Shown here in pieces: positions 13,301 to 51,555 of a stretch of DNA of 64,000 nt. The position numbers and the translations under genes were made by a program. The DNA is taken from positions 730,501 through 794,500 of the forward strand of contig NW_024881617.1 in NCBI RefSeq assembly GCF_019059575.1. The letters are read 5' to 3'. Position 1 is the stretch's first letter. Each line of letters begins with the position of its first letter. Source of the stretch: Amphibalanus amphitrite (taxonomy: Eukaryota > Arthropoda > Thecostraca > Balanomorpha > Balanidae). The notes under the pieces are model-generated. The model was not told where the DNA came from. It made no database searches and saw only the letters and a list, made by a program, of their open reading frames with translations.

Positions 13301-16300
13301 AAACCCTCCAGTCTGACGTATGTACCGTTTCTGGTTGGATTATGCCGTATGAGCAATGTCTGTAATGCCGTCTTTCAGCTAAGGCTGTAATGTTTGTTGG
13401 ATTCTTTGACTGGCAGGCCGATGATCGTTGAATCAGGTTAAACCGCCGCCATGACCGCTCTCATTTTGCTCACCGATCTGAGAGGTCAGTAGACTGACAT
13501 TTATCGTATGCCTGTCCATAGACCTCTGTATACAGAAGTTTATGGCCTGTCCTTTTTGTTGACTTCCCGGATCAAGGCATTTTTATCTAACCGCTTTCTC
13601 CATGTGGATCTCGGACATAGAGCACAACATTCCTCGTGCTCAGCGATAGGAAAAATTCCACCGGTGCCTTCTGGCAGCTTCTCGTCTGGAGATCCCACAC
13701 CGCGGGCCCCTGGATGGGCGCATACCTTCAGTCCCCTGCCGTCCCCCACACGGTGGTACGGTAGCAGGTAACACCACAGGAGTTCACCGACCGACCATTC
13801 GGCTAATGCACCTGTTTTCGCGGCCCAGCGCAGGTGGCCCTGGGAATTTCACCGCGTGTTGCCCCCTCCCGATCGATTCTGCGTAAACACCTGGACCCTT
13901 TGGACATGGGATTCGTTTGGCCGGGGTCTAACGAAGAGCCCAGCATGGCACGGGATAAGGTCGGCGCTTCCAAGCGCTTGACCGTAAACCTGTCTAATGA
14001 TTTCATTATTCAAGTGAGGAGGAAGATAATGCAATTGCAGTTGTATGTCTTTTGTACGGAATTGGCGGCTTGGCGGCTCGTGTGATATTTGTCACTAACA
14101 CTGGGACTCATTTATGAAATTTGATTTCATAATCGAAGAGACATAACACACTGCTGCATTTGGTGTGGTTTATGGAAAGGATACCGTATTGTGAAGAAGC
14201 TTGTGATACTGTGGCCAGCTTGCATTATGTACAAAAATTGAGTTACACACAATACACAGTCAGTTTCAGTCCTATTTCTACTGTTTATGGACAGTGATGC
14301 GTTTTCTGAACACGTTGACTCATGGCACAATCCTATGGCTTGGCTCTATGCCAACCCCTATTCAGTAGTACCTACGTTTATCTGGCCGGCGGGATACGAC
14401 TGTCGAGCAGTTCGCTTCTCTGGCTGGCCGGACTAGCGGTCGTGCTCGGTCAGCAAGCAGTCATGCAAGCACAATGAAGGCACATGCCGACTGCTGGCAT
14501 CGGGTTGTGCTCGTTTGTACAAACTCGTATATCAAATCAATGGGTGACACATAAACCGTTTGACGTGCACGATAGATGACTGCACTGAAGCATACCTATG
14601 AGATTGCGGTCAGGTATTGGACGGTCCAGTGGCGCCGGCTCTTTTCGGAGTCGGAACGGGGTCAGGACTGGGGGCTGGGCCTGAGAGGTGCACTGTCTGG
14701 TCACGATACACATTGGTGATCCTGGTCTGACCGCTGCACAATGTGTACGGGTGATCGGGTTAGACCTGTGCATTGTGCTTTGCGGTATCACGAAACACTG
14801 GTGATGTTTTATCCGATGCACATTGCCATGACTCCCTGGTTACGGTACGGTAACCACTGCAGCTGTGTAGCGTGTAGGTGGTGTCCTTCACCAATCACCT
14901 GTGCAGTGTCATGACGTGAAAGGGCTGACACGGCACTGACTCGACAGGTGGTGGCGGTGGTGTGGTGCTGTGTCAGCGCCTATTGAGTGTCAGATGAGAA
15001 CGACAAATGGGGTTGGGGCAGGGAAAGAAATGCTTCAGAGGGCAGTTTTGAACAAGTGTGCCTTTGGGCCGCTAGTGGACCGTGCTGCTAGTGCACGAAT
15101 AAGTTTGGTGGGCAGGATCGGGATTGGTTCTGTAAGTCGGCCGTGGTCACAGTAACGGACACGGCTGGTGCATGAACCAGGAAGCCAGCGGACCCTACAA
15201 CCCCAAATAGAGCCAAGCTGGAGAAGAGTCTACTGTTTGGTGTTGCTAGTTATTGCTGTGCATTGTCTACAGTGACGCTGGGCTTCGTTGTTTGTGTTTT
15301 TCATATCATCGTGTTTAATCTGTGTATTGCACAATGCACAAGGCGCACCACGCGTACATACCCGAAGTCCCGCGAATACCACACATACCACACAGTCCCG
15401 CGAACTACAAAATCCTGCTACCAGAGATCCTTAATTCCCAAAACATCCCTGCACTGGAACCAATTGCCTACGCACATACGAAACTGCCAAGAGATGAAAA
15501 AATTCAAACAAAGCATTAAACTACTACTCGGCACACCACAGCCCCCACACTACAACGCACTAGGAACTAAGGTTGGGAACACTTTGCACACACAAATCAG
15601 ACTGGGGATGTCCAAGTTAAACGCACACCAGTACTCTATACAAAAAGTAACAAGCCCCGAGTGCGCCTGTGGCTACACACAAGAAAACACAAAACACTTC
15701 ATCCTTCACTGCCCACACTACGCACTGACGAGGTCCACACTATTTGCACAAGTATCCACACACCTCAACATTGATTTCAACAACCAATCAGACACCATGA
15801 AATTAGACACACTTCTACACGGACACAACACGACAAAGCAAAACGCACCTCAGGTTCTCCTTGCCTTTCAATCCTTCCTCAAAAACACCTCCAGACTGAT
15901 ATAGCCCCGTCTCGGTGGACTGGCGCCGGCCCGCTATCACCGCTTATCAATGCAAACTGTCGCGGCAGCCGACCTGACTCTCCGCGGCCCTGGATTGTAC
16001 CATATTCATTTATTCTGTTTACGTTACCAGGTGGTGGTGCCTCGATTTAAGCATCAGCTTTTGCACCACCACCTGGACTACTTGCTTATTTCCATTTTTA
16101 TGCCTAATAAATGTGTTTTGTTGTTGTTGTTGTTGAAGAGTGCTCAGCATAGGTGACTGTTTGCCCTCCGTTTGCCCTTAGCAGGACTCATCTGACCTCC
16201 GACTTGTTACTTTGCAGCAGGGTACGCCCGGAGCTGGCCACCTGACCTCTGATCGTGCCCCCCCCCCTCCCGCCGGGTACGTTCAGAGCTGGTCATCTGA

Positions 16301-18833
16301 CTTATGGCTGTGTCTTTCCAACTGACCTCAAACTCGGCTTCTCCCGCAGGGTTCGTCCGGAGCTGGCCGTTCAGCTGAGTGTCTACGGCATGGTGCTTGG
16401 CGCCATCGTGGCTGCCTGGTGAGTTACCACACCCGTCTCTCGGACACAGACAAGGAAGTAGGATAGGAACCCTAGTCCAGACACTCCGGCATTCAGTAAC
16501 TCGGCACTCATATATCGGCACGCTAGACTCCAGGCTTTCCAAACTTTTCCAACACCGTACCCCCGAACACTCACCAGTCATCACTAAGACACCCGTTCCG
16601 ATACACCAGACACCCAAAGACTCACACATCCAGGCAGACACTTAGAACCAATTCTCGGCATCCCAGCCAAATACTCAGCTCTCCGTTAGTCCTTCTCTAT
16701 ACACTCAGCACTTGACACCAGCACTTCTGCCTAACTCCTGTCCACCGTCGCTCTTTCATGTTGGCCCTGCCCGGATGGTTCTAGCTTTGCTGTCCTGAAT
16801 GCTAATTCTTCGATGCGTCATGGCTGTTTAGCCGATGTAGTTATCCGTACACACCCATAGCTGATTCGACTTCGAGGCGCAGTCCCACTTTTAGGTGATT
16901 ACGTCCCGTTAGCCACTGGCCGTGTCTGCTCGATGCTGAGTTGTGGCCGTGAGATCACCGTGCTTGAGTGAATCACCGCGGTCGCTAAACCGCCATGCGG
17001 TGGAGATGTGCGACGTTTTTATTCATGGATATTGGTTTTAAGATGGTGGCTGCGGAAGTATGCTGTATGGCTATTGCAGTAAGGGACATCACTCATCCGG
17101 CTCCGTCATATTTTAATTTTACATTAAATTAAGAAGTACGGTAGTACGTACAGCAGAACTTCTTATGCATATTTTTGCTTACCTGCTCTCCATCTTGGTA
17201 GAAATCATGGTTCATTCTCATCCTCCTCTGCCCGCCGCACTGCCGCAGTGTGTCACCCTTCTACCGACCCGGTCTATCCGTCGCCGCATGCCGCCACTCC
17301 CGCTGACCCTGACACCTCTCCCGACAGCGCCGACCCGTCGTTTGACCTGATGGGCTACACGATGGTGTTCACCAACGACCTATTCACGGCCGCCAACGGC
17401 GTCTACTCCAAACAGAAACTGGAGGCGCGCGACCTGGGCAAGAACGGCCTGGCCTTCTACAACGCGCTGTTCATGATCGCCCCGCTGTCGCTGGTCGCCT
17501 GGTGGCTCGGACACTGGAATCTGGTACGGTGTGCAGGAAGGGAATAGGGTGGGGGTGGAAGGGTGATTGGAATCACTCTGGGATGGGAATGGGAAGGGTG
17601 ATGGGACCGTTGTGAAGTAGGGAGATAGGAGAGAGATACGGGCAGAGTGGCGGGAGATAGTGGACGTGAGGGAAGCTGAGATTGGGCGACGAGGATGTCA
17701 GAATGATGGTATGAGTTTGAGGACGCCTCAGCGACAATATATCGGAATGTGGAGATGGAGAAGCTAATGTGGGGCAGCGGATGAGAGGAAGGCTAGGTGG
17801 CGATAGACAGAGGCGAGGATCAAGGGCAATGTAGGATATGTCGATGCGAACCTTCATTGTGCTGATTTTCTCTGACATCACCAGTGCACATTCCCCGCTC
17901 TCCGCAGACCGTCGTTCCACTCAACCTCTGCCCTCACTGACGTCCCTGCGCTCTCCGCCAGGTGTACGAGTTCGCCGGCTGGTCGGACGGCCGCTTCCAG
18001 TTCCACTTTCTCACCTCGTGCGCCATGGGCACCGTGCTGATGTACACGACCATGCTGTGTACGCAGCACAACTCGGCGCTGGTCACCACAGTGATTGGCT
18101 GCATCAAGAACATCGCCATCACCTACTACGGCATGTGGTTCAACAGCGACTTTCAGGGCGGCCCGCTGGTCGTCGTCGGTCTGCACATCAGGTGGGTGGA
18201 CGTTTGCTGAAAGTGGACAGGCTGATAATATAAATACAGCAAAGAAATTCCCAGGTGGGTGGATGTCGGAAAGGATTGGAGGGAGGGAGGAGTTGTGGTG
18301 ACGGCACACTGGTCGTGTTGGGCGAGTCAGACGTGGTAGGACACGGTAGGAGCATAACGATGGGGGCTGGCTACAAAGGCTACAATACTGATGAATGATG
18401 ATATTGGGATACTATACAATGCTGCCGTGCAAAGGCAAAAAATGCTATGTTGGTTGGGTCACCCAACCTATGACCCAACATGACCCCTGACTCAACATAG
18501 TAGTTTTGCACGGTAGAATGGGGGGGCTGATGACTATCATATGTGGGCCATATGTACTAGGTGCTGACCTGGTTTAATAGTGCGTCCAGTGCGATAGTTT
18601 TTGTTGAGCTTGCTATGCCTTATCACACCAAACGTTACCTAACTCCAGCTCCAAGTACCCAGCGGTTTCGTCAGAATATTCGCTAGCTCGACCGCCCGCA
18701 AGCCCTGACGTGCCATTCCCTTCGCAGCATATTCGCGAGCTGCTGGTTCGCCTACCTCAAGTTCAAATCGAAGCCGTCCGCCACTCTGCCCGTGGCCGTT
18801 CATCAGAATGGCAACCGCGTGGTCACTGCGTAG
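4334..18833 (+). CDS. frc: SLC35D-type UDP-sugar transporter (fringe connection-like)
   Basis: Nine coding exons: 4334-4521, 5186-5219, 9743-9829, 10628-10695, 11066-11137, 16350-16418, 17328-17523, 17962-18191, 18728-18833. All have GT-AG borders and matching phases, giving 1050 nt and 349 residues, close to the roughly 355 of human SLC35D1. The protein is a multi-pass antiporter, expected in ER/Golgi membranes, that exchanges UDP-sugars (UDP-GlcA, UDP-GlcNAc, UDP-GalNAc in the family) for UMP to feed glycan and proteoglycan synthesis. Family landmarks seen: SSFAIMAVNKEVLT in exon 1, NQVTGLGGTKMLSLPM across exons 4-5, LRRFSILMTM, TAANGVYSKQKL, YNALFMIAPLSL, LCTQHNSALVTTVIGCIKN. The tail after the last membrane helix is short and basic. 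Exon 2 is a 34-nt microexon. Intron 5 carries a LINE fragment. The acceptor of exon 6 and the donor of exon 8 have decoy copies nearby. Assignment to D1 versus D2 is not possible from one sequence. Confidence 0.95.
5980..6009 (+). promoter_or_regulatory. three CRE-like sites spaced 11 bp
   Basis: TGACGTCA at 5980-5987, TTACGTCA at 5991-5998 and TGACGTCG at 6002-6009 start exactly 11 bases apart, about one helical turn, in frc intron 2. This spacing would place bZIP (CREB/ATF) dimers on the same face of DNA. Confidence 0.5.
7434..7463. mobile_element. 30-bp palindromic insertion flanked by 7-bp repeat
   Basis: CATAGATAACAT and its complement with a 6-base loop, flanked by TGGTCAG at 7427-7433 and 7464-7470. 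It starts CATAGA and ends TCTATG, like the 61-bp insertion at 48341, so the two may belong to one family of minimal hairpins. Located in frc intron 2. Confidence 0.5.
10231..10242 (+). repeat. G12 homopolymer
   Basis: Run of twelve G in frc intron 3 within a purine-rich stretch. A likely site of length polymorphism or sequencing error. Confidence 0.8.
10505..10541 (+). promoter_or_regulatory. pair of perfect CRE sites in frc intron 3
   Basis: TGACGTCA at 10505-10512 and again at 10534-10541. The full palindrome twice within 37 bp is uncommon by chance. It may be an intronic enhancer; there is no other evidence. Confidence 0.4.
12690..12835. repeat. GACTCCG-rich degenerate repeat
   Basis: GACTCCG and CGGCTCC units recur in two groups around 12700-12765 and 12795-12832. 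The pattern resembles subterminal repeats of non-autonomous DNA transposons. It lies in frc intron 5. No terminal inverted repeat or target duplication was established. Confidence 0.45.
15230..16134 (+). mobile_element. 5'-truncated non-LTR retrotransposon (LINE) in frc intron 5
   Basis: The open frame to 15904 ends in a typical LINE reverse-transcriptase tail: LHWNQLPTHIRNC, then a Cys/His region CACGYTQENTKHFILHCPHY. A GC-rich 3' UTR follows, then AATAAA at 16106-16111 and a (TTG)n tail ending at 16134. The heptamer GAAGAGT occurs at 15223-15229 and 16135-16141 and could be the target-site duplication, which sets the limits given. Only the C-terminal part of the RT ORF remains, so the copy is dead. 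It lies in the same orientation as frc. Confidence 0.75.
15340..15904 (+). pseudogene. LINE reverse transcriptase C-terminal remnant
   Basis: About 188 codons open to the stop at 15902-15904. The recognisable parts are the thumb-like WNQLPTHI segment and a following zinc-knuckle-like Cys-x-Cys...His...Cys-x-x-His cluster seen at the end of many LINE ORF2 proteins. The catalytic palm with the YADD-type motif is absent, so no activity is expected. Codon use is AC-rich, unlike the GC-rich exons of the host gene. Confidence 0.7.
16205..16375 (+). repeat. triplicated acceptor region of frc exon 6
   Basis: The exon start GGTTCGTCCGGAGCTGG at 16350 has two upstream copies: GGTACGCCCGGAGCTGG at 16221, preceded by a good pyrimidine tract and GCAG, and GGTACGTTCAGAGCTGG at 16276, where AG has become CG. 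Only the third copy continues the frame of the transporter. The copies also share a following CTGACCTC-type motif. The first decoy could act as an alternative acceptor. Confidence 0.75.
18186..18266 (+). repeat. duplicated donor region of frc exon 8
   Basis: CAGGTGGGTGGA occurs at the real donor (18191/18192) and again at 18254/18255, 63 bp downstream, with similar bases after it (GACGT / GATGT). This is a decoy 5' splice site. Confidence 0.55.
18424..18512. repeat. foldback element after frc exon 8
   Basis: Nested inverted repeats: CCGTGCAAA / TTTGCACGG at the ends, CTATGTTG / CAACATAG inside, and a central GGTTGGGT-C-ACCCAACC hairpin. It looks like a small degraded MITE in frc intron 8. 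Confidence 0.55.
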
Positions 18834-20297: not shown

Positions 20298-20303
20298 TTT
20301 ATT
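20298..20303 (-). terminator. possible AASS polyadenylation signal
   Basis: TTTATT on the plus strand reads AATAAA on the minus strand, about 950 bp after the AASS stop codon. I noticed no closer canonical hexamer; a long 3' UTR would result. Confidence 0.4.
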
Positions 20304-24200: not shown

Positions 24201-27200
24201 GACGCCTTATGGCGCGACCTGCCGCCAGGTCAGAGGCGTGGTATCGCAGCGGATACCCATTGAAGACAACGATGTCTCAGAGGGCACTTTGGCTTCGGAA
24301 GGTCAGCCATACCGACGTCTGTCAATTGTCATGCTATACGTGCTGTTCTGTAGGTATAATTGCACTTCTTTTCAAAATTTATGAAATAATTCACATGAAA
24401 GTAAAAATATATCTTTACATTGGACGCTTGTAACTTAACGCCTTATTTGATAGTATTTGTTTAGTACGACCAGTAAGCCATTCGTAGAGTGAAGTCAGGG
24501 ACCATTCATGAAATGAATGCAGGGTACAGGCCAGGGGTACGGGATTCCTCCCAACCGGTATCGACTCACCAGACCGGTAAAGTAATTTTCTAGCGACCAC
24601 TAAAAGCTCGTATCACCAGCCACAGTCAAACCTACTGCTCAGGGGACAGCACAGTTGGCAGGGTGACCTACCATTGACTGCCAAGGCTACCGTTGACGTC
24701 ACAAGGAATCGTCCAATCAGGAGCAGTCTAGTGGCAGCAATGTCCGCCTGTTTATTTACAACGGGCGTTTGGTTCAACTGGGCCATGAATAATGACATCT
24801 ATGCAGCCACGAGTCCTTGCCCTGAGTCAGTTCCCATTCATGAAGGGACATAAGGCGTAGCGAACGTCGTCCTTTCTGATTTCAATGGTTCAGTAAAAGG
24901 AGCGACCAGATAACTCTTATGAACGCGGTTGCTGTTTGTCCGTCTATATGTGTAGTGTCCAAGGTATGCAAGTTAAAACGTGCAATTTTCATTTAACTAC
25001 GCTGGGGATGGTTGTATACCGAACTCATACTCGAACAGTGCAGTGATACAGTGCAAACGTTATACAACTCTCACCCATGGTGTTCATCGCGATAATGCTC
25101 TCTGAAATGCAAACGAACTGCGCAAGGCACATGCATTCAACTCTGAGTTTACAACACGCAGAGAAATATGGCAATCGATTTTAAGAGACGGGTAAATATT
25201 ACATATCAACAATTTCTTCGAAGTGATCCTGAGAAAACCTACCGGTTGCACAACATAAAAATCGTGCTTCTTGTCATTTTTATAAAATAAGGGCTACATC
25301 AACATTCAGATCACAAGAAAATTTACTGTGCATAGTCATTAAGTCCTTCCCGCAGGCGCAAGGGACTACAAAGAAGGCAGGCTTGACAGGGGACGAAACA
25401 TGGGCGCCTGGTTACAAGGAATAGTGCCGACATCGTCCAAAAAGCGGCCTTGGAATGCCACCGGGGCGCATAAACGGACGGAGGAATCTAATAGCGTGTA
25501 AACATGCAAAAGGCAACTACAAGGTGGCCATTTTACCAGGAAGATATCGGCATCTCTGTGCCATTCTTACCCCCTGCAAAAGTAAGAACAGTACTTCAAA
25601 CGATGCTTCAAACGTATTCGCAAATATATGCAAAACACCAACAAATTTACCGGTCCTGAATCCCACAAATACACTAGAAATGTCTGGTTTAAGCCTTCTA
25701 CCGAGCAACCTACCTGCTTCCCCTGCGCAGTTCGTCGATGTACTCGAAGTTGGGAGTCAGCTTTCCATTGCTGGCGATCACGGCCTGAAGAAGAAAATTG
25801 GAGCATCTCAATATGACGAATAAGCATATTCACGTTGATGAATATCCTGATAAATTCCCATGAAGCTTATAATGACGGGCCTAAGAAAACGGCGAAAGAA
25901 AACCACGAAAGAAAACGGCGAAAGGTTATTAAAACCCCACCAGACAGTGACAAACAAAAAATTTAAATGCCACGGCTGCCATGACAGCTCGTTTAAATAT
26001 CAAATACAGGAATACGCACGCCCTTGTTGACGGGGTTGAAAGGCTGCTGCTCGAAGGGCCGGTCGGCGTTCGACTGCAGGATGTTGTACACGTAGGGGAA
26101 GAGCAGGTTGCCGAAGAAGTCGGTGGCCTCGCGCGGCAGCTGAGTGGGCATGTTGTCGATACTGCACACCAGCACACCGGGACCGCGGAAACTGGAACGA
26201 CCAGAAGGGAACGTCAGAGCGGAGGCTAACGGGGTGTCAGGGAGGCAAACAAAGGCGTAAGCTATTTGTGTGCACTAAAATTTTGGGCACAGCAAACCGG
26301 ATCACCGTCTGAGACTTGTGTTGACAGTGCTGACGGAAAAAAAGACAGCAAAACCACACCAACCGTATCCACACAGTTCACTTATCCAACTTATCAAAGC
26401 TCCTGCGTTCAAAATATACAATCTGTCCATTCCACACCTGATTCACCCTATTCGCCTACGACCCTGCCCTCGCCGTCCCGGCGGGATTGCCGTCCCGGCG
26501 ACATCCGTACCTGTTCTTATCCTTGTGCTGGTCGGCGTCGTACAGACAGAACGGCGAGTCGATGGTCGTACACTCGGTCATCATCTCCAGAGAGCCACCC
26601 GGATCGGCGCTGATGTCACAGATGGCGATCATACGGTGCGGCAGACGCGGCGAGCCTGCGACAGACGGCGGCGCATGATCAGCGCTGGAGACACCTGATT
26701 CGTTCGGCACCAAGGGCAATTTCGTCGCGTGTCGCGACCTGACTGGACTGACGAAAACGAACTTATTTAAGAAATAAAAAGCCTTGGTCGCAAAGAATAC
26801 GCACAAGAAGGCCATGCCTGGTTGACGAAAAGTGAGTTTGTGTCGTGACATTAGCCTCAGTTTGAGGAAGCCAGGGCCGAATCAGATGGCACAAGCCTCC
26901 GCGTTTGGAAAAGCCAGGGGTGAATCAGTCCTGCGTCAATCACATTGGTGTCCACTCTGTACTCTTTGGGAGTTCCACATCACCCTCAGTTTGCGGTGGC
27001 CAGGTTTGGTTGACGGACTGTGTGTGTTTGGGCGTTGGTGCGACGTTACCCTCAGTCTGGGGTAGCCAGGGCTGCTGTCTCTGAGTTTTTGCGTTACATT
27101 ACCTTCGGTCTGCGGTAGCCAGGGCTGGTTGACGGGCTGCAGGAGTCGCTTAGCGTCCGGTAGGGTCAGCAGTTTGGGCGAATTCGGATCCCAGTAGATA

Positions 27201-30200: not shown

Positions 30201-33200
30201 ACGGGTAGGTAGCCCAATATAATTTTAAGAAGCAGTAAACGGATAGCCGATCGTGCGTACGATATTTTGAACAATTTTCTTCACATCGACCTTAAATCTT
30301 TCTCATCATCACGGACCTGACTATGGAAAAACGTACACATTCGAGATTCAAGGTCAGTCATTAAAGAAGGACTCTCCTGGGAAATGGAAACTTGGCACCA
30401 AACTCATTTGGCTCATGTCAGCTGGCGCCTGCCAGGCGAGGGTCTAATGGGGTGTCTGCCCGGAGACCATCCCATGGCCAGCGTGCCGCGGTCAAGGAAA
30501 CGCTAAATAGAACGGAAACGGAAAACAAACCGTCCTAAAATTTACGAAAGGAGCGGTCGTCGGGATCCGACAGCAATGTCATTTGTCGAGGCCCCCATCT
30601 TGCCAAGAAATCTCGCTCGAGGTAGAATCATGCTATTTTCATATTTACAATCGAGATATCGCGTCAAAACATCGAAACCATCGTATTTCTCCGTCCCCTT
30701 CAAGGCATTTAATTTCACAGCATACATACACATAACAAAACGGTAAGCGCTCAATGAAACCGCCAACACCGTCTGGCCAAGACTCGAGACTCGAACCCTC
30801 TCACCTTCTCTAGAATGGCATCCAGCAGCGGCATGTTGGCCTCCTGCGCTTTGATGGTGTGTGAGAAGAAGCAGTACGTCTTGTTAGGGATGAGCGCGTC
30901 AATGGGCACCTGTTTGACGCCCATGATGACCGAGGCCTCGCCGATGTCCTCCTTGATCTGGGCACCGGCGTTTATGTAGGCCTGCGGACATGGAGGGGTG
31001 GAAAGAGCGGTACTAACTCGGCTTTCGTTGAGTACGCAGGCGTCGATCAGCCGTAGATCGTATTAGATGTGAAATATACATGCTCAGAGACTCAAACAAC
31101 GTTCATCGACATACTACCAAAACATTTGTACGCTAATACAATATTTCTTTTGAAGAAATGGAGAAAAAAAACATTCACCTTACGGCTTCATCGTATATAA
31201 ATAGACGAGTGCTATAGTGAATGAGCGAATAAATTACAGTGATATATTTCGAAGGTGCTAAATGTAAGAGTGGTCCATTTATGACCGTAGCTTTCTCATT
31301 TTCGTAGGCTCCGCAGCGGCAAGGCATGTCTTATCTATGGCCGACACCAGACATCTCCATTCAAGGGACCCTCCCACCTTAACATTAGATTTGAGTTGAG
31401 ATAGCCAAATTGGTGGCCATGGCCTGAAAATACCGGTTTGGGCACTCACAACATCGAAAAATGCTTTAATTCGGAGATATCGAATTTCAAACTTGCAGTT
31501 TTCGGATTCTAAGGGGCTAATGCATGGGTATGCCCCCTTAGAATTTGTGACGTCAGCGGAGATCTAACGATTTTAAATCTTTAACTAAAACGTTTGGTAG
31601 CACGCGGTGTATATGCTGCTTTGCGCGCAACAAATGCCGCACTTTTAAATAAAGTCGCTAGGAACCAGGGTATATAGGCTAGGAACAGCGGAGATTTCAA
31701 AAGGTAAACAAAAGTAAAAGTCTAATATCTTGAAAACCGGTGAATATTTTTCGATGAAATTTGGTAGATATTCGTTTTTGCTCTTTCTGAACCGAGCGAC
31801 ATCACTTTCATGCCAATTCATTAACTTTTTTGAAGGTGGGAGGGTCCCTTTCAGGGAAACCGTCCCGAATGTGTCGTGTAAACACAGGACGCGGCGCATG
31901 GGAGCAGCTGGGGAGGGGAGGGGAGGGAGACCCCTGGCGCTCGTCGGACACATCTCCCCGTCGGCCTGGGGCGTCTGCGCGCGTCGGGCACATGGTAACA
32001 GACAGACGGCGGACACGGGCGTCGTCAGACGAGCCGACACCGGAGACGGACGCTCGGGGTCGGCTGGACGGGTGTTGACGGTGGCTCGAGGTTGGGGTTA
32101 TATGGCACGGCAGTGAAGCGGTGGCTGGCGGTAAACAGGGAGGATGACCACAGGATGGAGGGCTCTGTAGCCGACAGATTTAGGGCCAAGGCCAATGAAA
32201 ACGCAGCCCACGGCCTTGACGAAAAATGTTGTGCAAACACACATACAAACAGTTAAAATTGGTTATCAAAAATGACGACTTTTCGACGGAACACAAACTG
32301 AGCCAAATTAAATCAAGTGCGACGGGAAAAGGGAGTCTGGCTCAATTTTCACGATAGTGGCCCTACTACCCACCATAGACCTCTACATACCCACACAAGG
32401 GGGGCGACCCGTTTGCCTCCCCAGGCCGCCTCACGCAGCCCTCTTACGGAGGAAAGTGGGATGAGGCATATCGCATGTAAAATAGTCACCATGCGATATG
32501 GTATGGGGCCGCTGAGGCATATCATATCGCATCTACATATATTCATCACCCCATCGATCGAGACGTGCCCACCTTGGCCCCGTCCATGAGCGGCCTAGCG
32601 ACCGCTGTGTTGGCGGGCTAATGTCGCCGCTGCCTATTTTTGCTATCCGAGACTAGAACCCCCTCCGCTGATCTCCACACGGCGCCCGACCTGGCCAGGG
32701 GCCATGGCGCCGGGCCCGCTCAGTCCCGCCCACAAATAGCAGCGCGCTGATTGGTCGACGCCGGGGGTGGCGGCCGTGACGTCACCGACCGTCGCCGGTT
32801 CGTTGATACGGGGACGGGAGCCGGAGCCGCCGGCGTGGGTTTGGGGTGTAAACCGAATACCAGACGGTAGCGCTGACTGTCCTGCTGATCTCTACCTGAG
32901 AAAGAAGACTCTGCTGACTGTCTTGCTGACTTCTACCTGAGGAAGCAGCCTCATCTGATGTGCCCCACTTGCAGGTACACTTCAGGGACGGATATTTTAC
33001 TTTTTTGCGGAAGTGGTGTTGCCTCGCGTGGTTGTCAAATAAACATAACCTCGAGAGCAGACATCGAACACACTATGAACTTTGTCATTTGTTGATGACA
33101 TAAAACTCGCCATCCAATGTCTTTGATGTTTCAGACCATACCGCGTGTAGGAATTTTCCATCGCGGCATTCAAACACCAACAATCGGTAAACAATAAACA

Positions 33201-34306: not shown

Positions 34307-34343
34307 GACCGGGACGACTGGTCCCTGCCCTGGTGGTAAAGAC

Positions 34344-35150: not shown

Positions 35151-35199
35151 ATGGCAGGTCAAAGGAGTCTGTAATGTTCCGAACACTCTAGAGAACGCT

Positions 35200-36960: not shown

Positions 36961-36967
36961 GAGGAAG

Positions 36968-37305
<338 letters not shown>

Positions 37306-38004
37306 AAAGAAAGACTGGAGGGAAGGGATAAGGACGGGAGGAAAAAAAAGAGACAGAAAAGGAAAACCAGAGAGGGTAAAATGAGAAAGAGGACAATGGG
37401 TAAATCAGTGAGAGCGAGCGAGAGAGGAAATATTTAGTTGCGTCAGCTTGTTTCACATGTAAAATTTAAATTTGCTTTCCATCATTACAGCCTCGGATTG
37501 GAAATTAAATCTTAGCATCCTTATGAATTGATAAACCCACGTAGATGGGATGCAGTAGCGGCGGAACACCTTCAATTAAAGGGGGAGGGGGCACTGCCGA
37601 CTTTTGGTTCTATTATTTTCATGCAACGCTCATAGGGCTAATGTTGAAATGACAAAATCAAAGGGGGGCACGGTGCCCCGGTGCCCTCCCCGTTCCGCCG
37701 CCTATGACGGGAAGGGGACGCTTTTATGGTCGTCGTTGGGAGCTCGGCACTAATGGGGTCTGGGAATGATGTTGAAGGTTTTGCAAATGTTTCCTAAAAG
37801 AGATGCTATTTTTTGCACAACCTATTAAACATTTTTTTACGTTTGCTATGAAAATGTTAGGCCCAGTTCCTTCAAGATCAGGTCCATGACTCCACAGCTT
37901 ACAACAGGAGCTAGCTAACATAACAATTAACCCGCGCTGTGTTGGTGGCATGAACTTTCCGTCGAGTGCTGGGGGGAAGTAATCTTGGGGGGGGGGGTCG
38001 TTTC

Positions 38005-38870
38005 ACGCCCCTACGTCAACTCGGCTCCTGGGCCACGTAGCGACACGCGGTAACCGGCAATCGAAAGAGCGTCAAAAATAAGGAGAAAAACACTCGGGTC
38101 ATTTTAAGGTCAAGGCAAAGGTTAGGTCACCAGGATTCATCAAAGGTCAAATTTTGTTGATTTCAACGATTTTGAACACCCGACGGCTAACTCGGGTACC
38201 AACAGAGCTACAGCGCCGCGGAAAAGCGCATTCGATAGCTCTTTTAACGCTCTTTCGCCGATATGTCCTCAAATTTGACCTCAAATCAACGGTTTAGCCC
38301 CCAGAGGACACCGCTCTGATTGACCTCAAGTTTGACCTCAGATCAACGGTGTTTTCACCGCTCTAGCACGTCTCTGTCAAAAGTAAAAAACTGCTGAAGA
38401 CCTTTTATGTCCTAAAATGACCTCAGGGGCACACACAGGGGTCACAGGTGCAATTTTCCGATTCAGTGTGTCATGTTTACCCATGGACCGACGATGTTTG
38501 AGAGGGTGTAGAACAAAATTCGTCCAAAAGAAGCGCATTTCAGTTTTCTTCCATTGACTTATGCCTAATGGAGCAGACGCCCCAGAATTGACCTGACCCT
38601 AGGTCACAGACATAAAAAATCCGAGGTATCCATTTTATACATACTGTTACCCTAAGCAATTACTGAAAGTTTTTAAAGTGATCGCTCAGTCGGTGTAGCT
38701 ACAGCGAGCTTTCGAATTCTTTTCTGAGGTAAGGTCACTTGACGTTACCTGATGACCTGACCTTGAATAACGCTACACGTCGCGTCGCCGTTTTTGAGAT
38801 ATTCGCGAAAAACCTGAGGGGGGAAGGGCGTAAAAACGCCGCCCCCCCCCCCCCTAGCACGGCACGGGTG
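38005..38870. repeat. AGGTCA-rich interspersed repeat, copy A
   Basis: Matches copy B at 43590-44830 through several blocks: the start around ACTCGGCTCCTGGG and ATCGAAAGAGCGTCAAAAAT, the block AGAGCTACAGCGCCGCGGAA, the block around TCTGAGGTAAGGTCACTTGACG, and the GAGATATTCGCGAAAAACC end before a C-run. It carries several AGGTCA/TGACCT hexamers and has no coding capacity. One inner block (near 38515-38575) is inverted relative to copy B. Confidence 0.75.
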
Positions 38871-42540: not shown

Positions 42541-42694
42541 GGACAACGGTGAAAACAGGGCGCCTGGGGCGATTTGATCAAGGTTCGTGAAATTTACACA
42601 TGACGTTTGGCATACAGAAGGCCCATGGAGCGGGAGAAGTTCCAAATGTCACGTGACTAATATGCCCTCTGGCGCCCTGTTTTCACCGGCGTCC
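42541..42694. mobile_element. 154-bp MITE with 8-bp target duplication
   Basis: The inverted ends share the 17-base core GGTGAAAACAGGGCGCC (42548-42564) and its reverse complement (42671-42687), preceded by GGAC-type outer bases. Both sides are flanked by the direct repeat GATCTTTT (42533-42540 and 42695-42702). No coding capacity. The 8-bp duplication suggests hAT or another 8-bp superfamily. It sits in the presumed leader intron upstream of separase. Confidence 0.8.
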
Positions 42695-43589
42695 GATCTT
42701 TTCAGTGCAGACTGGAGAGGCTCTCGGCTGGTGCGCTATGATGCAGATTAACAGCAGTGTGTTGTGGGTTTCTCATTGAGCGCTGTGAGCCTTAGCCTGA
42801 ATTGTGAATGTGCTGGTTAATTATTGCACATGAAAGCAAGATATGATGAGAGGAATGATCTGGATTCTGGACAGCCAGTAAAGAAACAACTAGCCCTTTA
42901 TCTCAGTATTTTGTATTGCAAGTACCTATATATTTTAAGATAAGGTATGCAGTAAATTTGTAGGTGTTGTTTGGTGTGGACTAAAACATATTTTCTGCTT
43001 GATTGTGACTGGTGTGGTGTGGGCTCAGGGCTGGGCTGGTAAAGATTTGATCGACAAGCTGGATATTTTGTGAGCTACAGTTGCCATGTTTTGCAACTGG
43101 AAAGATGGGAAAACATTGATTGAAAATTGATTTAATATAAGTGCATTTAATTTTGAAAATAATAGTTATTTCAAAAGCAGCACAGCAGTAAGGCATTTTA
43201 ACATTATATCCAATTCTCAGCTGCAAAAATTTAAGAGCTTTACACACTTAAGTCAATTTATGGCTAATTTCTGTTTGCTACCTTTTGAATTCATGAACTG
43301 GTTAATAAAAACACTTCTTTTTTATTATCTAGGTATTTAGAAGAAGAAAAAATATTGTTACTTTGGACATGCAGCAGGTACACATCGCACCTTGTGAATC
43401 AAAATGTTTTTGGAAAATATGGATGCCACATTTGGTTTGTGCCACATGTTCTTTTGTATGACATGTGTTATGTGCTGCATTGTTTTCTCTTATCGTTGAA
43501 AAATAGCCAGTTACTAGCCACCCCCAAAATCAGCTTCACTGACACTATGTTAACCCGAGCCGCGACTTCCGCGCCGGGCCGGGGGTCTG

Positions 43590-44830
43590 AAGACCCCCGT
43601 CTAACTCGGCTTCTGGGCAACGTAGCGACATGTGGTAAGCGGCATTCGAAAGAGCGTCAAAAATTATAATGGAAACACCGCGGTCATTTTTAAGGTCAGG
43701 TCAAAGGTCAGGTCGTCAGAGGTCATCAAAGGTCAAATTTAGTCTATCTCAGCAACTTTGGAAACTGCCAAAGCTAACTTGGGAATCAATAGAGCTACAG
43801 CGCCGCGGAAAAGCGCATTCGGTAGCCCTTATACACACTTTTCTGGGCAATGTTCTCAGATTTGAGCTCAGGTCAACGGTTTAGCCTCCAGAAGAGCAAA
43901 AACTAAAAATAGCAGTTTTTATTAAAAGGGGTTTTCAGTAATAAGTTTTGACCCAAGAGAGACACGGCATTTATTTTGCCATCACCGTATTCCCCTCGTC
44001 GTGACGCGTCGAATGAACTATAAGTTTACCTTGAAAGGTCATTTGGAAAATTTGACCTCAGATCAAGGTCATGACCTGTCGGGAAAGGGTCATGTTGCAT
44101 ATCAGTCGATTCGTATCGTCTAAATGAACACATCTGAGGTGCTTTCATTGCTCTAGCATGTCTCCATCAAAAATTATTGTCAAAAAAAAAAAAAAACGCT
44201 GGGAATCTTTCATGACGTGTTATGACCTCAGGGACATGACTCAGGGACAGCAGGAGCTGTAGGTCAATTTTGCGACCTATCCATTATAAGTCAATGGGAG
44301 AAAATTGAAGAATCTCTTTTGGACGAACGCCATTCCAAACACTCTAACATCGAGTTTCAGGTAAACTTGACAAGCTGAATCGAAAAATAGTAGCACATGT
44401 AACCTCTCTTTAGACCTTATGTCCCTGAGGTCATAACACGTCACCTTAGGACCTGACCTTAAGGTCACCGATAACTAAATTCCGAGATATACATTTTGTA
44501 CATACATACTGTAACTCTTATCAATCGCTGAAAGTTTCAAGACGATCGTTCTGTCGGTGTAGCTATGACGATCGTTATAGGTCATAAGTTTGAAATCGTC
44601 AAAAAAGTTTGAATCCTCGAGGATTCGAACTTTTTCTGAGGTGAGGTCACTTGACGTGACCTGATGACCTGACCATGACAGCCCTGGGTCTGAATTTTTT
44701 ACAACATGTGTGAAAAAGATGCATGAACAGGTGTGCCAAAAACGGTGGCGCTCAGCGCCGCCGTTTTTTAGATATCTGCGAAAAACCGCAGCGGGAAGAG
44801 TGTTCAAACACCCTGCTGACCCTGTGCGGG
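43590..44830. repeat. AGGTCA-rich interspersed repeat, copy B
   Basis: Longer relative of copy A. It contains overlapping half-sites including AGGTCAAAGGTCA (a DR1, 43698-43710), a near-perfect palindrome at 44602-44635 centred on CTCGAG that copy A lacks, and the same end pattern GATATCTGCGAAAAACC. No protein is encoded. Confidence 0.75.
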
Positions 44831-46453
44831 TTAAAAAGAAAAACCTACATGCCTAATATGTGTTCACTAAAAATTGAGACAAATTTTAACGGACTGTATC
44901 TTCAGTAAAAATGTACCGATTTAAACAAACGAGGCATTATTGTAAAGCGCATTGCACCTGCTGCAAGCTGTAGAGCGTCAACAGATTTTTCCTGATCCCC
45001 ATATGTCTCTTTTTGTACATTTGCTTGGAAGTGTTTTCACATGCTCTGGCACCAGTGGGCCGTGAATTTGGCCAATTCATGGCGGTAACGAACAACCAGT
45101 TGATATTTTCTATGAAATTTAAAGACACCAACATACGTTATAGCCTTCGGCAAAACACATTTCATACTCATTTCTTAAATTTCAGGCGTGGCAAACGGCT
45201 TATTGGGCCTCGTTCCAAGTGGAATTTTTACATCGGCCGGGGTCCTCAAGGCGCCCCTTGGTTAGTGTGCTGGCGCGAGGTCGGACCAGAAAACCACCTT
45301 CTGGTTACATATGTTGTTCTGCATGAACTTCTAGTACTAAATAATACATTTGGCTCCGAAAGTATCATATTATATGGGACCAGCCTGGAGGAATGAATTC
45401 CAACTGTTGATAATGATATGCTTTGAAATGACACATACACCATAGCATCCAGCGTTAGCTTGCATACTGACACTTAAATGGACGTTAGCTCTTGTGTCAT
45501 CGATAGCATCACTACAGAACACTCCATTGTCTAGTTAATTGTCGCCCTTTAACTAAAAACATAACTTTTCTTCCTTATATAGTTCGACCTTTTTCTGAAC
45601 TTTTTGGCCCTTTCTTGACCATTGCATATTTACGTCTATTGCCTAATGCTGTTCCCGGTCGCTTCGAGAAATCATTTACGCCGTTTGTTACTCAGCCTAG
45701 CCTCAGGTGTGTTATATCTTCTTCGTGTTGGTACAACTGATACCTTACTGATCAGCAGCATTGCGCCGTGAGGTGCCAAAAAGCCCCTCCACGTGCATTT
45801 TCGGGGCCCCGACCTTTCCCCAGGTCAATATCTTCACAATAACACCACTTCAGCTTTTCGGACTCCCACACCCACATAGAACTTTCTTTCCACCATGCGG
45901 TATGTAACTAAGTTCGACATTATAAGGTTTCATCAGATATTTGTACGTCCGAGACTCTCCCATTGACGCACTATTTTGGGATTAAGCCTGCCAATGGGCT
46001 TCCGGTGGTCCTTATTTAAAGCGACCTCCTACGCGACTGTTTTGAATATATCCGTGAAATTTTATGCTCCATATGATGAGAAATGTTCCTTTTATCTCTA
46101 TGGTAAGTTGCATCGAAATAGCTTGCTTCGCTTTTGGTGTGCAGTTATTCAAAGTTTGTGTCAATTTTTAGTGAACACCCAGTATTAACATTGCTGAGCT
46201 GCTGTCACTCATATTTAGCTTATTTTTAAATATTTTATGGGCATCTTTCTCCACTTAATTTACCCAGTTTGCGTCTTGCCTTTTTATATCTATGTTATTG
46301 CAAGTGCAACTTTTATGGCTGATGGGCATACAATTAGAAGTGTTGAATGGAGAGTATACAAGTGTGCTTTTATTTGTGCCTATGTATGTGATCTACTCAA
46401 ATAACTTGTGTTTATTTCTTTATTGCCAGCGCCGAGTCTGAGTCACAGTTGCC

Positions 46454-49400
46454 ATGGAGACGCTGCTGCGCGGCGCGAGCGGTCTGCGGCTGGATGACAG
46501 CGTGTCCACCGTCTCAGACCTGCTGGACACAGAGCCGTCTGCCGAGGCTCTGCCGGCGCTGCTGGAGGGGGCCGAGCGACTCTGCTGTGGCTCCTCGCAT
46601 AACAGTGAGTGTGTGGGAGTGTCGTATAACAGTGAGCTTATGGGGCGGCCACATTAAAAGTGATGGCATGGGCGATCGCGCAACAAGAGGATGATTACAT
46701 ATCAGTGAGTGTATCCGACCGTCGCACAATAGCATAGGTATGGGGTTATTGCCTGAGTGTCCCTCATACCTCAGCTGTTTCGTTTATTATCGCTCGCGCG
46801 TCTCGATCAGTGGATGACCCATACAGTGCAGTCTGCTTCGACTGCGCTTGCGACAGTACCTGTCACAGCTGCCTGTACCACTGCACCTAGATGTCTCCAG
46901 GTCTGGTGATTCAGCGCGCCGTACAGTACCAGTCCCCGCCCTGTCTGTACCACTTGATCTGCTGTCACCAGGTCTGGTGATTCAGCGCGCTCTTCAGTAC
47001 CTGTCAGCCGGACAGCCCCTAGAGGCGCTGCACTACCTCGCGGAGAGCCACTCCACCACGCTGCGACAGTACATGATCATGAAGAGCTCCTGCCGCCTGG
47101 TACAGTAAGTGGCAAACACGGGGACTGAAGGGTGGGCCTTTCCGCTACTCGGAGCTTGGCAGAATTACTCGTCGGCAGTTTTGTTTGCTTGATTTAACAT
47201 GTTAGTACGGAACCTGTACGTACAGTGTACAAGAGTTGTGATATGCTGTCGATGATCGCTGCAGTCCCGTCGCCATGGAATCTAATGCCGGGTCCGAAGT
47301 CTCGCGGACGGCAAAGATTCTAGTGCTACATCGAACGGCATTTTGGGCTCAGACGGCGAAGAATCTTAGTGGCCTTGCTTAGAATTTTCGACGCCAGGCC
47401 CAAAACGCCTTTCGATGTCGCACGGACGGCGATGATTCTGCGTGACGTCACGGAGAATCTCTGTCGTTCGCGAGACCCCGAATCCGGCTTAAAAGTTCCC
47501 ATCTGCCCTGACCTGCCGCTTCTGTCGCTAGGTCGCAGGTCAAGTCTGGCGATCGGGTGTCGGGCTGGCCGGCCGGCACCCAGGAGGCGCTCCTCGACTC
47601 TCGGCGCCGGCAGCTGCAGTACAAATCGGCCCTCGAGCGCAGACAAGAGATAGTCGACCTCATCAATCTGGTGCCGCCAGGTAGGTACAGGACTGGGGCC
47701 CTGGTGCTGGCAGGATGCAGAGGGATGACGTTGGGCGCTTGGTTGGCTACCATGGGTGGAAGCGTCTGCCTCGAAAATCCTTATAGAACAAGAGTGTTTG
47801 GCGTTAGTTTCACGCACGTCTTTTTGCTGGACAACGGTAACATCGTATGATTGATTGTTTATGTCACGAGTCGTCAGCACTAGCGACAGTTTTTAAGTGT
47901 GCCCACGACCGTTAGATTCTGTCCTTGTACCTACCTGCTCAACTTGCCCCTCCGCTCTATGTACAGACAGGACGGTGATCCAGATGACACCACTACCACA
48001 GCCAGCTGACCCGTTCTCCGCTCCTGTGTCTACAGACTGGACGGTGATCCAGCTCACAGCGGTACCGCGGGCACGCAGCCGACTCACCCGTCACGACACA
48101 CCCGAGCTGGTGGTGTCCCGGTTCCAGGGCGGAGACCCCGACTCGGTGCTGCTGACGCGCGTGCCGGCGCCCGCCTCCGACCACTGCTGCTCGTTCCTAT
48201 CGCAGTTTGAGGCGATGTTAGCCGACAACGGTTCTATTCAGCGCAGTCTCTCCAATGACCGGCACAAGTACTGGGCAGAGCGCGGTCTGCTCGACGAGAG
48301 GATGAAGGTAAGCTCTGTCGTTGTGAGAGGACGCCAAACGCATAGAGATCTTATATACATCTTATATACATCTTATATTATATGTATATAAGATCTCTAT
48401 GGCCAAACGAAGAGGTTGCAGCTGAATTCAAGTATATTAAAAGTTTATTATTAATGCATTAATTGAGGCATGACTTTTTATTGAGTTTCAAATTTATTAT
48501 ATCGACAGACTGTTGTATTGCCAACAACGATACTGAAAGATGAATAACCTTCAGGTCTGGAACTCGTAGAACTATCCACGGCTCTGCTGGATCTATGGAA
48601 AAGTGTCAATCGTATTTTGAGAACAGTCTTCTGGTCACAAATTTCCAATGCGTATCGTCAATGCCGGCGCTGGATTGTTTACTTCTATCGCTGGTGCTAG
48701 GCCACTACTCGTTACGTCGTATTGACTTTAACCTCTGTTAGGCCCACATCTGTTGTAGCTATCACTGCTGCAGCTGACTCCACGCCGCCCCATTTGCCGT
48801 GTTCCCCAGTCGATCGTCCGGAGTATGGAGGTAGCCTGGCTGGGCCGACACGCCTACCTGCTGGCGGGCTGTCTGCTGCGTCCGCAACACCGGCGCGCCG
48901 TCGCCGAGACGGTGGCCGCTCTGCCGGCCTCTCTGAGCGGGGAGCAGCGCGCGCGACTGGCGCTGCTGGCGGCGCGTCTCCCGGAGACCGCTGGTGACCT
49001 AGCGGACGGCGTGGCGGCGGCGCTGGGCCCGTCGGCGCCCGTCGAGCTGCGGCGAACCGTCACCGAGACGCTGGCGGAGCGGCGCGATGATCTGGAAGAC
49101 GCGTCGGCCGGCGCGCGCCGCGGTCAGGTGCTGCTCGTGCTGGACCGCGAGGTGCAGCGCTACCCGTGGGAGACGGTAGCCGGCCTGGCGCTGGGACCTG
49201 CCTGCCGCCTCCCGTCGCTGGCTATCCTCGGCCTGTGTCTGACCAGTCGCAGCCAGCGGCCCGCGCCGCCGGCGGCCGCCGCGGGCGCCACCTACATCCT
49301 GAACCCGGCCGGAGACCTGGTGAACACGGAGCAGCGCATGGGACCGTTCCTGGAGCAGCGCGGCTGGAACGGTATCGTCGGGCGGCCGCCCACGCTCAAA

Positions 49401-51555
49401 GAGTTCTCCGCGGCGCTCACCGAGGGACAGGTCATGGCGTAAGTGACGGGTGTCGATAGTCGATGCCAATACCCAGACCAGACCAATACTGCTCCTGAAA
49501 CCCAGACATAGGTAGGCGCGTATGGGTATTGGGTAGCCGGCAGGGAGGGCCTACGTAGAGGTATGTTAGCTTATGTGTATGCCTACGTATACTGCATAGA
49601 TACTGTGTCTACGGCAGCGACAGAGCCTCCCAACCTTTGAGTTTTGACTGAACTGTACTGTACTCGCAGGCCCGACTGCTGATTGAACTGTACTGGACGC
49701 GCAGGCCCAACTGCTTCTGTCAGGCAGCAGCTGTTACTCCCTTCCAACTGCTAACTTCGGGCTGTTGTACTTTTCTCGCAGGTACTGCGGCCACGGCAGC
49801 GGCAGCCAGTACCTGCCGACGGAGAAGCTGCGCGCGCTGCACTGTAACGCCGTGGCGCTGCTGTTCGGCTGCAGCAGCGGTCAGCTGGTGCAGCCCGGGC
49901 CGACGGCCGACCCGCACGGCTCGGTGCTAGCTTACCTGATGGCCAACTGGTGAGACAGCTGGGTGGAATGTAAGGTAGAAAAAGATGGCGGGCGAATACG
50001 CACTACACAGGAGTTGAAATGAAATGGACCACGAAAACTGTGTTTGTGGGACGAGGGCGATCCTGGTAGCCGCGTTAGTTCTCTGTGGCAGTATGACAGT
50101 TACCGTGATCTTTGGTAACCTTTGGACTGCTCACTGTGGTATGTAGTCGTACGTCTGAGTTACTGCGACCCTCTGAGCTACCTGTGGTAATATGGGACAG
50201 TATATCTGTCAGCTATCGTGGTCCCTAGTAACTTGTGGTCGGTCATAGTGTTTCTGACAGTTACTCTTCGTCTGTTCCACAGTCCGGCGATTCTCAGTGT
50301 GTCTCATTGTGTCCTTCTTTACCCACAGTCCGGCGATTCTCGGTGTGTCTCACAGTGTCCCTCTTTACCCACAGTCCGGCGATTCTCGGTAACCTGTGGC
50401 CGGTGACAGATAATATGCTGGACACGTACTCCAAGGCCGTCATTGAACAGTGGACAGGTGAGGACTGAGCGGCATCAAACTGAGTGTCAAAGGACTGTCT
50501 CTCGTGGGCGTCGGCCTGTCAATGAGATTCCTGGATTAAGATTCCGGATGGGGAAAGTGCAACTGATGTTTACAAAACGCTTACAAGAACTGGATACTTT
50601 GTAATAAAGTTTTACAAAAAAAGTTATAGTGGGTTTTATTTGTGTTGTGTAGAGTAGGACAGTGGTAGCTCCAGCGTTCAAGGTTTGTTCTTTCTGCGCT
50701 TTGATAGCAGGACGGTTTGACAACTCTTCGTTGGTATGAACTTCAACTAAATGTTCAACTAAATGAAAAATGAAATGAGACTTCTAGGTATGACGTAGTG
50801 TGTACTGAAAAGGTGTTTGACGCATCTGTTCTAAACTGACACCTCCCGTTGCAGACGGCCCCGGTGGCCGCAGTCTGCCGGAGGCGGTGTCGGCAGCGCG
50901 CAGCTCAGTCACCTCCTGGTTCATGGCGGCAGCACCGGTCGTGTACGGCCTCCCGGTCACTGCCGACCACATCCGACCTCGCCAGCCCGAGACCCCCTGT
51001 CCGGCCGCACAGACGATGGGCGACACCTCCCGGCTGAATGCTGCCGGTGACCAGTCCAAACTGGACGCCAGTGTCAACAAGTCCAGGTTGAATGCCACCA
51101 TGGAGCGGTCCAAGGCGAGGCGGGGAGAGGACCGGCTCGGACTAGATGCCACCGCTGACAGCTCGAAACTGAACGCTCTCACCGACCGAACCAACATGAC
51201 GGGAGTGCCGGACAGCTCCTGTGTCGGGCTGCTGGAGGCGCTGGACAGAGATGATAGGGCGACAGAGAAGTCGCGTGCCGACACGACGCGGGATAGTGTC
51301 AGCACGGAGCCTCCCCTGGACCGCACTCAGTCGGAGAAGGCGTCACAAAAGGATCCTGTGGAGAGCAAGAAGACCGCGGCGCGGGGCCTGACGCGGATAC
51401 CCACCAAGGTGGCATATGGCACCGCCAGGAGCGCGGCCGGCACGGAGCGACCGCGCAGCGCTGGACGGGGTGGAAAGAAAGCGGCAGCGACGGCAGAGGT
51501 GGCTGCCGAAACCAAAACGACGGCCCGACCGCAGCGCGCCAGCCGCAGAATATGA
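46454..51555 (+). CDS. Sse: short separase (cohesin-cleaving cysteine protease) with C-terminal tail
   Basis: Eight exons: 46454-46604, 46972-47104, 47532-47680, 48036-48307, 48810-49438, 49782-49949, 50375-50457, 50855-51555, total 2286 nt, 761 residues, phases consistent. Separase cuts the kleisin subunit of cohesin at anaphase and is held inactive by securin. The C50/CD-clan landmarks are all present: LVLDREVQRYPWE (about 344-356), YILNPAGDL (397-405), the catalytic His in YCGHGSG (His449), the catalytic Cys in LLFGCSSG (Cys475, 26 residues after the His as in human), GNLWPVTD, and FMAAAPVVYGLPV (551-563), where human separase ends. About 198 more residues follow, with nonapeptide repeats and a basic end. 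The start ATG has a good context (GCCATGG), and an in-frame TGA lies at 46439-46441 just upstream in the same exon, so the protein seems genuinely short, like the fly enzyme (about 630 residues) and unlike human (about 2100). Splicing of the N-terminal exons is the least certain part. Confidence 0.93.
46850..46998 (+). repeat. duplicated acceptor region of separase exon 2
   Basis: The acceptor and first exon bases CCAGGTCTGGTGATTCAGCG occur at 46900/46901 and, 71 bp later, at the real junction 46971/46972. Only the second copy continues into LQYLSAGQPLEALHYLAE. The first could serve as an alternative acceptor but would run into a different sequence. Confidence 0.75.
47287..47488. mobile_element. 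foldback/MITE in separase intron 2
   Basis: The two ends form long imperfect inverted arms: a left part containing AAGTCTCGCGGACGGCAAAG and a right part whose complement contains GGTCTCGCGAACGACAGAG. A second inner inverted pair surrounds the centre (GGCATTTTGGGC / GCCCAAAACGCC). The ends are GCCGG / CCGGC. I saw no clear target duplication, so the outer limits are approximate. Confidence 0.6.
47945..48056 (+). repeat. duplicated acceptor region of separase exon 4
   Basis: TACAGACAGGACGGTGATCC (junction 47966/47967) is repeated 69 bp later as TACAGACTGGACGGTGATCC at the real junction 48035/48036, with similar upstream TCCGCTC-rich tracts. Both have usable AG dinucleotides. Confidence 0.75.
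48341..48401. mobile_element. 61-bp palindromic insertion with 8-bp target duplication
   Basis: Perfect 20-base inverted arms (CATAGAGATCTTATATACAT and its complement) enclose a 21-base AT-rich spacer. The octamer GCCAAACG is present on both sides (48333-48340, 48402-48409). The element lies 33 bp inside separase intron 4, just after the donor of exon 4. It is extremely small for a transposon-derived element. Confidence 0.75.
49649..49715 (+). repeat. duplicated acceptor-like unit before separase exon 6
   Basis: TGAACTGTACT...CGCAGGCCC(G/A)ACTGCT occurs twice about 34 bp apart. The real acceptor (TTGTACTTTTCTCGCAG, 49781/49782) is related but diverged. Confidence 0.5.
50273..50396 (+). repeat. 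triplicated acceptor region of separase exon 7
   Basis: CACAGTCCGGCGATTCTC occurs at junctions 50282/50283, 50328/50329 and 50374/50375, spaced exactly 46 bp. Only the third reads through GNLWPVTD; the first two run from GATTCTC into GTGTGTCTCA. Confidence 0.85.
50603..50608 (+). terminator. intronic polyadenylation signal in separase intron 7
   Basis: AATAAA lies 135 bp after an in-frame TGA (50466-50468) reached if the exon 7 donor is not used, and is followed by a GT-rich stretch (GTGGGTTTTATTTGTGTTGTG). A transcript ending here would lack the last exon, including FMAAAPVVYGLPV and the tail. Confidence 0.5.

Follow-up and report, generated by a model that had tools for sequence, protein, structure and literature searches.

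Close to 7% of the exon-intron junctions we sampled in the barnacle Amphibalanus amphitrite are copied into the neighbouring intron, a frequency several times above that of intron interiors. The copied segment consists of a few to about 40 nt of exon together with the adjoining intron, several per cent of junctions are affected, both acceptors and donors, and some of the arrays reach 3–7 copies. We consider it probable (roughly 0.65) that these arrays are minisatellites of the mirage type, i.e. short tandem duplications with lags of 27–129 bp whose unit spans an exon-intron boundary. The window (the whole stretch of 64,000 nucleotides that was analysed) comes from an assembly of 807.55 Mb in 2644 contigs, and further loci of the same genome were sampled for comparison.

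Hand-built models of the genes in the window give open frames for frc (9 exons, TPT family domain), AASS (15 exons, minus strand, saccharopine dehydrogenase domains), separase (8 exons, Peptidase_C50 domain) and TFIIE-beta (5 exons, minus strand, with the expected domain). An additional model of 2 exons is called NLK-like from reading alone, and a Pfam search of this short fragment found no domain match. We find a collinear second copy of the window region on contig C284, which, to judge from the alignment, we read as the other haplotype. Specifically, 38 of the 39 window exons map on C284, the remaining one lying beyond the fetched stretch, and exon identity is 93–100%, except in separase exon 3 (90.5%), while longer aligned stretches are mostly 82–94% identical, with one at 73%. 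Paired loci are also frequent in a kinase search of the genome; both haplotypes appear to have been kept in the assembly, which is repeat-rich.

Several other repeats are found in this region. On C284, the interval between AASS and separase holds about 9.5 kb of a 144-bp satellite (positions 41054-50587 of L003-L009, joined and reversed), an array that we did not detect in the window. An element of about 1.5 kb occupies positions 60072-61572 of the window; its ends are inverted (TTACAGGCAATGTGTGGAATC...), a 20-bp palindrome forms subterminal arrays at 60089-60245 and 61382-61549, and it looks like a non-autonomous DNA transposon. At 1940-2078 there is a degenerate TTAGG-like interstitial repeat, which we take to resemble the arthropod telomere repeat, and off-diagonal matches reveal a diverged repeat family common to the intergenic stretches 37988-38701 and about 43540-44811.

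We searched the window for self copies that span a junction, lie within 300 bp of it and score at least 16. Such copies are present at 5 of 68 junctions (the acceptors of separase exons 7, 2 and 4, the donor of AASS exon 7 and the acceptor of frc exon 6), vs 26 of 2368 intron-interior points. An earlier note on this DNA had named the same five junctions as its main cases, and all five are real, including the three copies in frc and the separase spacings of 71, 69 and 46 bp. For the AASS donor the note had counted five units, of which four are clear (the authentic junction and three copies) and the fifth is visible only by eye. The arrays are listed in Table 1, together with tandem duplications from intron interiors.

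Table 1. Tandem copies at junctions and within introns of the window genes
Feature	Position	Strand	Remarks
frc exon 6 acceptor array	16217..16368	+	authentic exon start 16350; also on other haplotype
AASS exon 7 donor array	26847..27139	-	authentic donor 27102/27103
AASS intron, 41-bp x2 tandem duplication	32872..32958	-	no junction spanned; counted interior
Separase exon 1 donor, x2, lag 27	46595..46644	+	score 13, below array-count thresholds
Separase exon 2 acceptor, x2, lag 71	46892..47005	+	authentic exon start 46972
Separase exon 4 acceptor, x2, lag 69	47962..48066	+	authentic exon start 48036
Separase exon 6 acceptor, weak copy	49600..49810	+	182 bp upstream of exon start 49782
Separase intron 5, 35-bp x2 tandem duplication	49645..49715	+	no junction spanned; counted interior
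Separase exon 7 acceptor, x3, 46-bp unit	50277..50390	+	authentic exon start 50375

The copies differ in how well the splice site itself is kept. In the frc array, the exon-start copy at 16221 (offset -129) keeps its AG and the one at 16276 (offset -74) has lost it. The three copies of the AASS exon 7 donor have boundaries near 27049, 26983 and 26854 (offsets 53, 119 and 248), the last one without GT; on the other haplotype, copies are found at 52, 119 and 198. The unit at the separase exon 7 acceptor is made of 16 nt of exon and 30 nt of intron, repeated at exactly 46 bp. The separase exon 1 donor copy is additional to the earlier note and was found on each of the two haplotypes (scores 13 and 14). 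If the copy lying upstream at the separase exon 4 acceptor were used, it would, by hand reading, add an open in-frame stretch (47967-48035).

The three cases that the note had called weaker fared differently. At the separase exon 6 acceptor, the window has a copy with 4/20 mismatches at offset -182, and on the other haplotype an additional copy, clear and 94% identical, lies at -69, with unmatched filler between the two acceptor copies. The other two, the donors of frc exon 8 and AASS exon 12, were rejected: their score of 8.0 is not above background, four junctions for which no copies were claimed (the acceptors of frc exons 9 and 2 and of AASS exon 2, and the donor of frc exon 3) score at least as high, and the other haplotype shows no match for either donor at the corresponding offset.

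Outside the window, we sampled every seventh contig with one 10-kb stretch each, twenty in all, plus one neighbour stretch (L033), which was picked as the neighbour of a gene-rich locus after stretch L015 had been seen; the stretch L032 includes 2500 N. Exons in these stretches were predicted with a small model of codons and splice sites that was trained and tested on the window only, where it finds 24 of 29 internal exons exactly. One intron, at the end of L014, was added by hand, and predicted exons inside repeat arrays were dropped (L015 8502-8902, L023 6937-7808 and L029 7394-7577). The latter three are minisatellite arrays with open frames that the exon finder read as exons. The stretch L015 also includes, at 4850-5025, the end of a dispersed repeat with at least 38 further matches of about 93–100% identity to the first 176 query bases.

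Junction copies are present in four further genes outside the window. One of these, in a single sampled stretch, is MAP3K4, identified by its MEKK4_N domain (E 2e-109), with a 31-bp unit in four copies at the exon 5 acceptor, an authentic exon 5 donor followed by three copies, two copies at 104 bp at the exon 9 acceptor, and a weak array of identity 0.73 at the exon 4 acceptor (L015 3171-3263). A donor of an exon with a RhoGAP domain is present seven times in a 44-bp unit, with six copies beside the authentic one, of which five are identical over 26 nt and the sixth matches on the exon side only; a second haplotype was searched for this array and none was found. Read by hand, this array (L014 9678-9964) terminates in a partial unit of about 23/44 nt, which suggests either that the initial duplication took in no more than the junction segment with a spacer, or that the end was deleted later. 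A third gene (L016) has two acceptor copies at no more than 8/26 mismatches, and more by eye, about 41–45 bp apart, while the acceptor of a fibrinogen-domain gene is duplicated at 87 bp, the copy holding only 6 nt of exon.

Copy number differs between the two haplotypes in 5 of the 11 arrays compared. The separase exon 2 acceptor has 2 units in the window vs 3 on the second haplotype, the separase exon 6 acceptor has its extra copy on the second haplotype, the MAP3K4 exon 5 donor is accompanied by 3 copies vs 1, the MAP3K4 exon 9 acceptor is found 2 vs at least 3 times, and the L016 acceptor array is longer by one unit (about 40 bp) on the second haplotype. The number is the same, as read, for the separase exon 7 acceptor, the separase exon 1 donor, the frc exon 6 acceptor, the AASS exon 7 donor, the MAP3K4 exon 5 acceptor, and the separase exon 4 acceptor, whose duplicate on the second haplotype is diverged, visible only in alignment and missed by the mismatch search. 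Such differences speak for units still being gained and lost, and make assembly error less likely.

With window and sample taken together, spanning copies that score at least 15 are found at 12 of 164 junctions, compared with 73 of 5059 intron points. Acceptors (9/81) and donors (3/83) are both affected, as the earlier note had it. The 12 include an acceptor at L033 6545, probably a false exon start with an exon-side copy, and excluding it gives 11/163. Sequence composition was rejected as the cause, given that splice-like sites inside introns have copies at 2/143, significantly fewer than real junctions (Fisher p 0.014). Outside the window, the corresponding numbers are 7/96 junctions vs 46/2133 intron points. 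Copies can also be recovered from the exon side alone: a search with 20 nt and at most 4 mismatches gives 19 copies at 10/164 junctions, against a background, obtained with the exon ends of other junctions, of 0.0012 copies per junction. The reverse, intron ends copied into exons (up to 4/20 mismatches), is found at 0/164 junctions, so the claim that the copies lie on the intron side is borne out, the doubtful L033 acceptor being the exception.

Counting whole arrays leads to the same result. We compared tandem duplications in 66 introns (53.7 kb) with their expectation under random placement (5000 permutations), and 10 of 20 arrays span a junction vs 1.48 expected (0/5000 permutations as high). 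The numbers are 6/12 vs 0.86 for arrays of identity at least 0.88 (2/5000), 4/7 vs 0.57 for young arrays of identity at least 0.90 (8/5000), 6/13 vs 1.11 without the window (1/5000), and 2/4 vs 0.26 without the window and contig C17 (104/5000). The second haplotype of the window, which is not independent of the window, gives 4/11 vs 0.78 (27/5000). The MAP3K4 exon 4 acceptor is counted among the 10 junction arrays, while the acceptors of frc exon 6 and MAP3K4 exon 9 miss the 5-nt rule and are counted as interior; separase and MAP3K4 together provide 6 of the 10. The earlier note had proposed that junction duplications exceed chance, which these counts bear out; the result it had named as refuting this, an equal frequency of copies in intron windows, was not obtained, and the junction excess repeats at other loci.

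Tandem repeats cover 5–8% of the sequence between 20 nt inside the exon and about 120 bp into the intron; farther into the intron coverage is at most 3.4%, and at 41–60 nt inside exons it is 0.4%. Tandem repeats are clearly abundant in the genome at large, and a spanning repeat that scores at least 16 is present at 298/3991 points located over 100 bp away from any predicted exon. Relative to these general genomic points, junctions show no excess (8/84, before the repeat-lying exons were dropped). Many of the repeats at genomic points are long intergenic satellite, and for this reason intron points and array counts were used as the fair control.

Between copies and authentic junctions, mismatch is 27% on the intron side and 13–14% on the exon side, and this 2:1 ratio is what one would predict with the real exon frozen and everything else drifting. 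As a consequence, junction copies should be recognisable about twice as long as copies in intron interiors. The earlier note did not consider this longer detectability beside a constrained exon, which must give part of the excess. The question is therefore whether random tandem duplications, falling evenly along introns and staying recognisable longer at junctions through their selected exon half, would be enough. We regard this as possible and no better than that: the twofold longer detection is expected and the genome is rich in tandem repeats, but the excess outlasts an allowed bias of twofold (p = 0.0001 for the 10/20 arrays; 0.0095 for the 6/13 outside the window) and even threefold (p = 0.002 and 0.045), and repeat coverage drops with distance into the intron. 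Young arrays (at least 90% identity) are likewise still in excess at junctions (4/7, p 0.012 under a twofold bias), so that neutrality and detectability are not clearly sufficient; detectability explains part of the junction excess, and not clearly the whole of it. On the second haplotype, 7 of 11 intronic arrays lie away from junctions, which favours random duplication and runs counter to a neutral mirage view.

The earlier note had also raised selection of the copies as splice decoys. Redundant sites could make splicing more efficient, protect a very polymorphic species against splice-site mutations, or serve regulation by nonsense-mediated decay. In a first count, AG or GT was intact in 37/39 copies, which is striking as a sign of function, but this was rejected because it does not persist in the less biased count of copies picked by their exon side only (21/23 at up to 5/20 mismatches; 22/28 at up to 6, chance matches included). 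From 57/460 exon-side mismatches, the neutral expectation is about 17.6 of 23 (p ~0.07, by hand arithmetic and with copies that are not independent), so AG/GT lies slightly above neutral expectation and may be weakly retained. Some copies do score near the authentic site (10.7 vs 8.6 for the MAP3K4 exon 9 acceptor on the second haplotype; 8.4 vs 8.5 for the separase exon 7 acceptor), but only 7/23 offsets are in frame and 16 are not, which also led us to reject protein diversity through in-frame alternatives. With mixed frames and near-neutral AG/GT retention there is no clear support for selected decoys, and together with copy numbers that differ between haplotypes and diverged copies that persist without AG or GT (frc exon 6 acceptor, AASS exon 7 donor), this makes selection improbable. 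When the exon-proximal splice sites are used, the models of the window genes and of MAP3K4 read as open frames and contain the domains expected of them. This bears on whether introns are being born or moved here through duplicated AG|GT segments, as proposed for amphioxus globins: the geometry is that of the model in PMC3087553 and several acceptor copies read CAG|GT, but no copy is needed for an open frame, and we find this explanation more doubtful still. An assembly artefact, i.e. false expansion of heterozygous or noisy long reads, could be invoked for an assembly that is repeat-rich and apparently keeps both haplotypes, and for the six identical 44-bp RhoGAP units without a second haplotype found. 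However, most copies are 80–95% identical, unlike duplicated reads, and 11 arrays are represented on two contigs that were assembled separately and show substitutions specific to single units, the separase exon 6 acceptor having a clear copy on one only. As judged by this comparison of contigs, in which the haplotype contig differs from the window in copy numbers and substitutions, artefact is very unlikely.

Under the preferred reading, that the arrays are mirage-type minisatellites, a first copy would arise by ordinary tandem duplication, through either a break with fill-in or slippage; the separase exon 6 acceptor copy that is on one haplotype only has unmatched filler beside it. Units would then be gained and lost by slippage or unequal exchange, while purifying selection would hold the exon-proximal splice site in use. 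With that site kept, surplus units would survive on the intron side only, tolerated and drifting neutrally. Part of the junction excess would be the longer detectability, since the exonic copy is preserved, and part would come from a genuine tendency of boundaries to seed or retain copies. More tentatively, a process aimed at splice boundaries, e.g. breakage coupled to transcription or splicing followed by fill-in, might seed junction copies throughout the genomes of very polymorphic animals, independently here and in amphioxus, and boundaries would then be hotspots of mutation that keep spare splice sites in constant supply. With a second very polymorphic genome and about 7% of sampled junctions, mirages become a measurable mutational pattern that bears on the origin of new splice sites, alternative exons and introns. 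They also matter for annotation, because decoy junctions carry real exon ends and gene finders can be misled.

In the human gene IFI6 (6-16), an exon-end minisatellite with a 12-bp unit reportedly repeats the splice donor, and alternative donors are said to be used; this is a single gene with a short unit, whereas the barnacle has several genes with longer units, whose copied sites are candidates for splicing. Human genes in segmental duplications have variable internal tandem repeats with units of 30 bp on average, some at exon-intron boundaries (PMC2812944); these are recent paralogues with changed gene structure, whereas the barnacle genes are conserved and their exons are read through without the copies. 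In the potato RdRp gene, an intron was reportedly gained by tandem genomic duplication linked to splice signals (PMC4974935); there the result is a new intron, in contrast to existing introns that receive junction copies here.

The closest match is the amphioxus mirages of Adh3, the globins BflGb6 and BflGb9, troponin C and PGBD5 (PMC3087553, PMC3902484). Units are 10–72 bp in Adh3, 60 and 108 bp in PGBD5 and about 150–160 bp in the globins, and BflGb6 haplotypes have 6 and 3 copies. As in the barnacle, the unit spans an exon-intron boundary, either acceptor or donor, lengths are comparable, AG/GT is present in many but not all units, and copy number varies among haplotypes. Boundary-spanning units, both boundary types, haplotype copy-number variation and partial AG/GT retention are thus all found here, and a lineage-specific process, as the earlier note had suggested, does not stand as a general claim. 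Another barnacle, Balanus improvisus, has about 20% diversity at fourfold sites (PMC8270832); by analogy, very high diversity may be common to mirage-rich animals, which is an idea only. Among the matches listed in our literature search, which covered few subscription papers, there was no report of mirages outside cephalochordates, nor of a measured junction excess for them. Somatic length instability is described for amphioxus Adh3, whereas the barnacle arrays are known from assembled sequence alone. The amphioxus reports, in the text at hand, treat single genes, while in the barnacle 7/96 junctions of an arbitrary sample are affected and the excess over intron interiors is measured. The kind of array is already known from amphioxus; new here are a second, distant genome with mirages and the measured junction excess.
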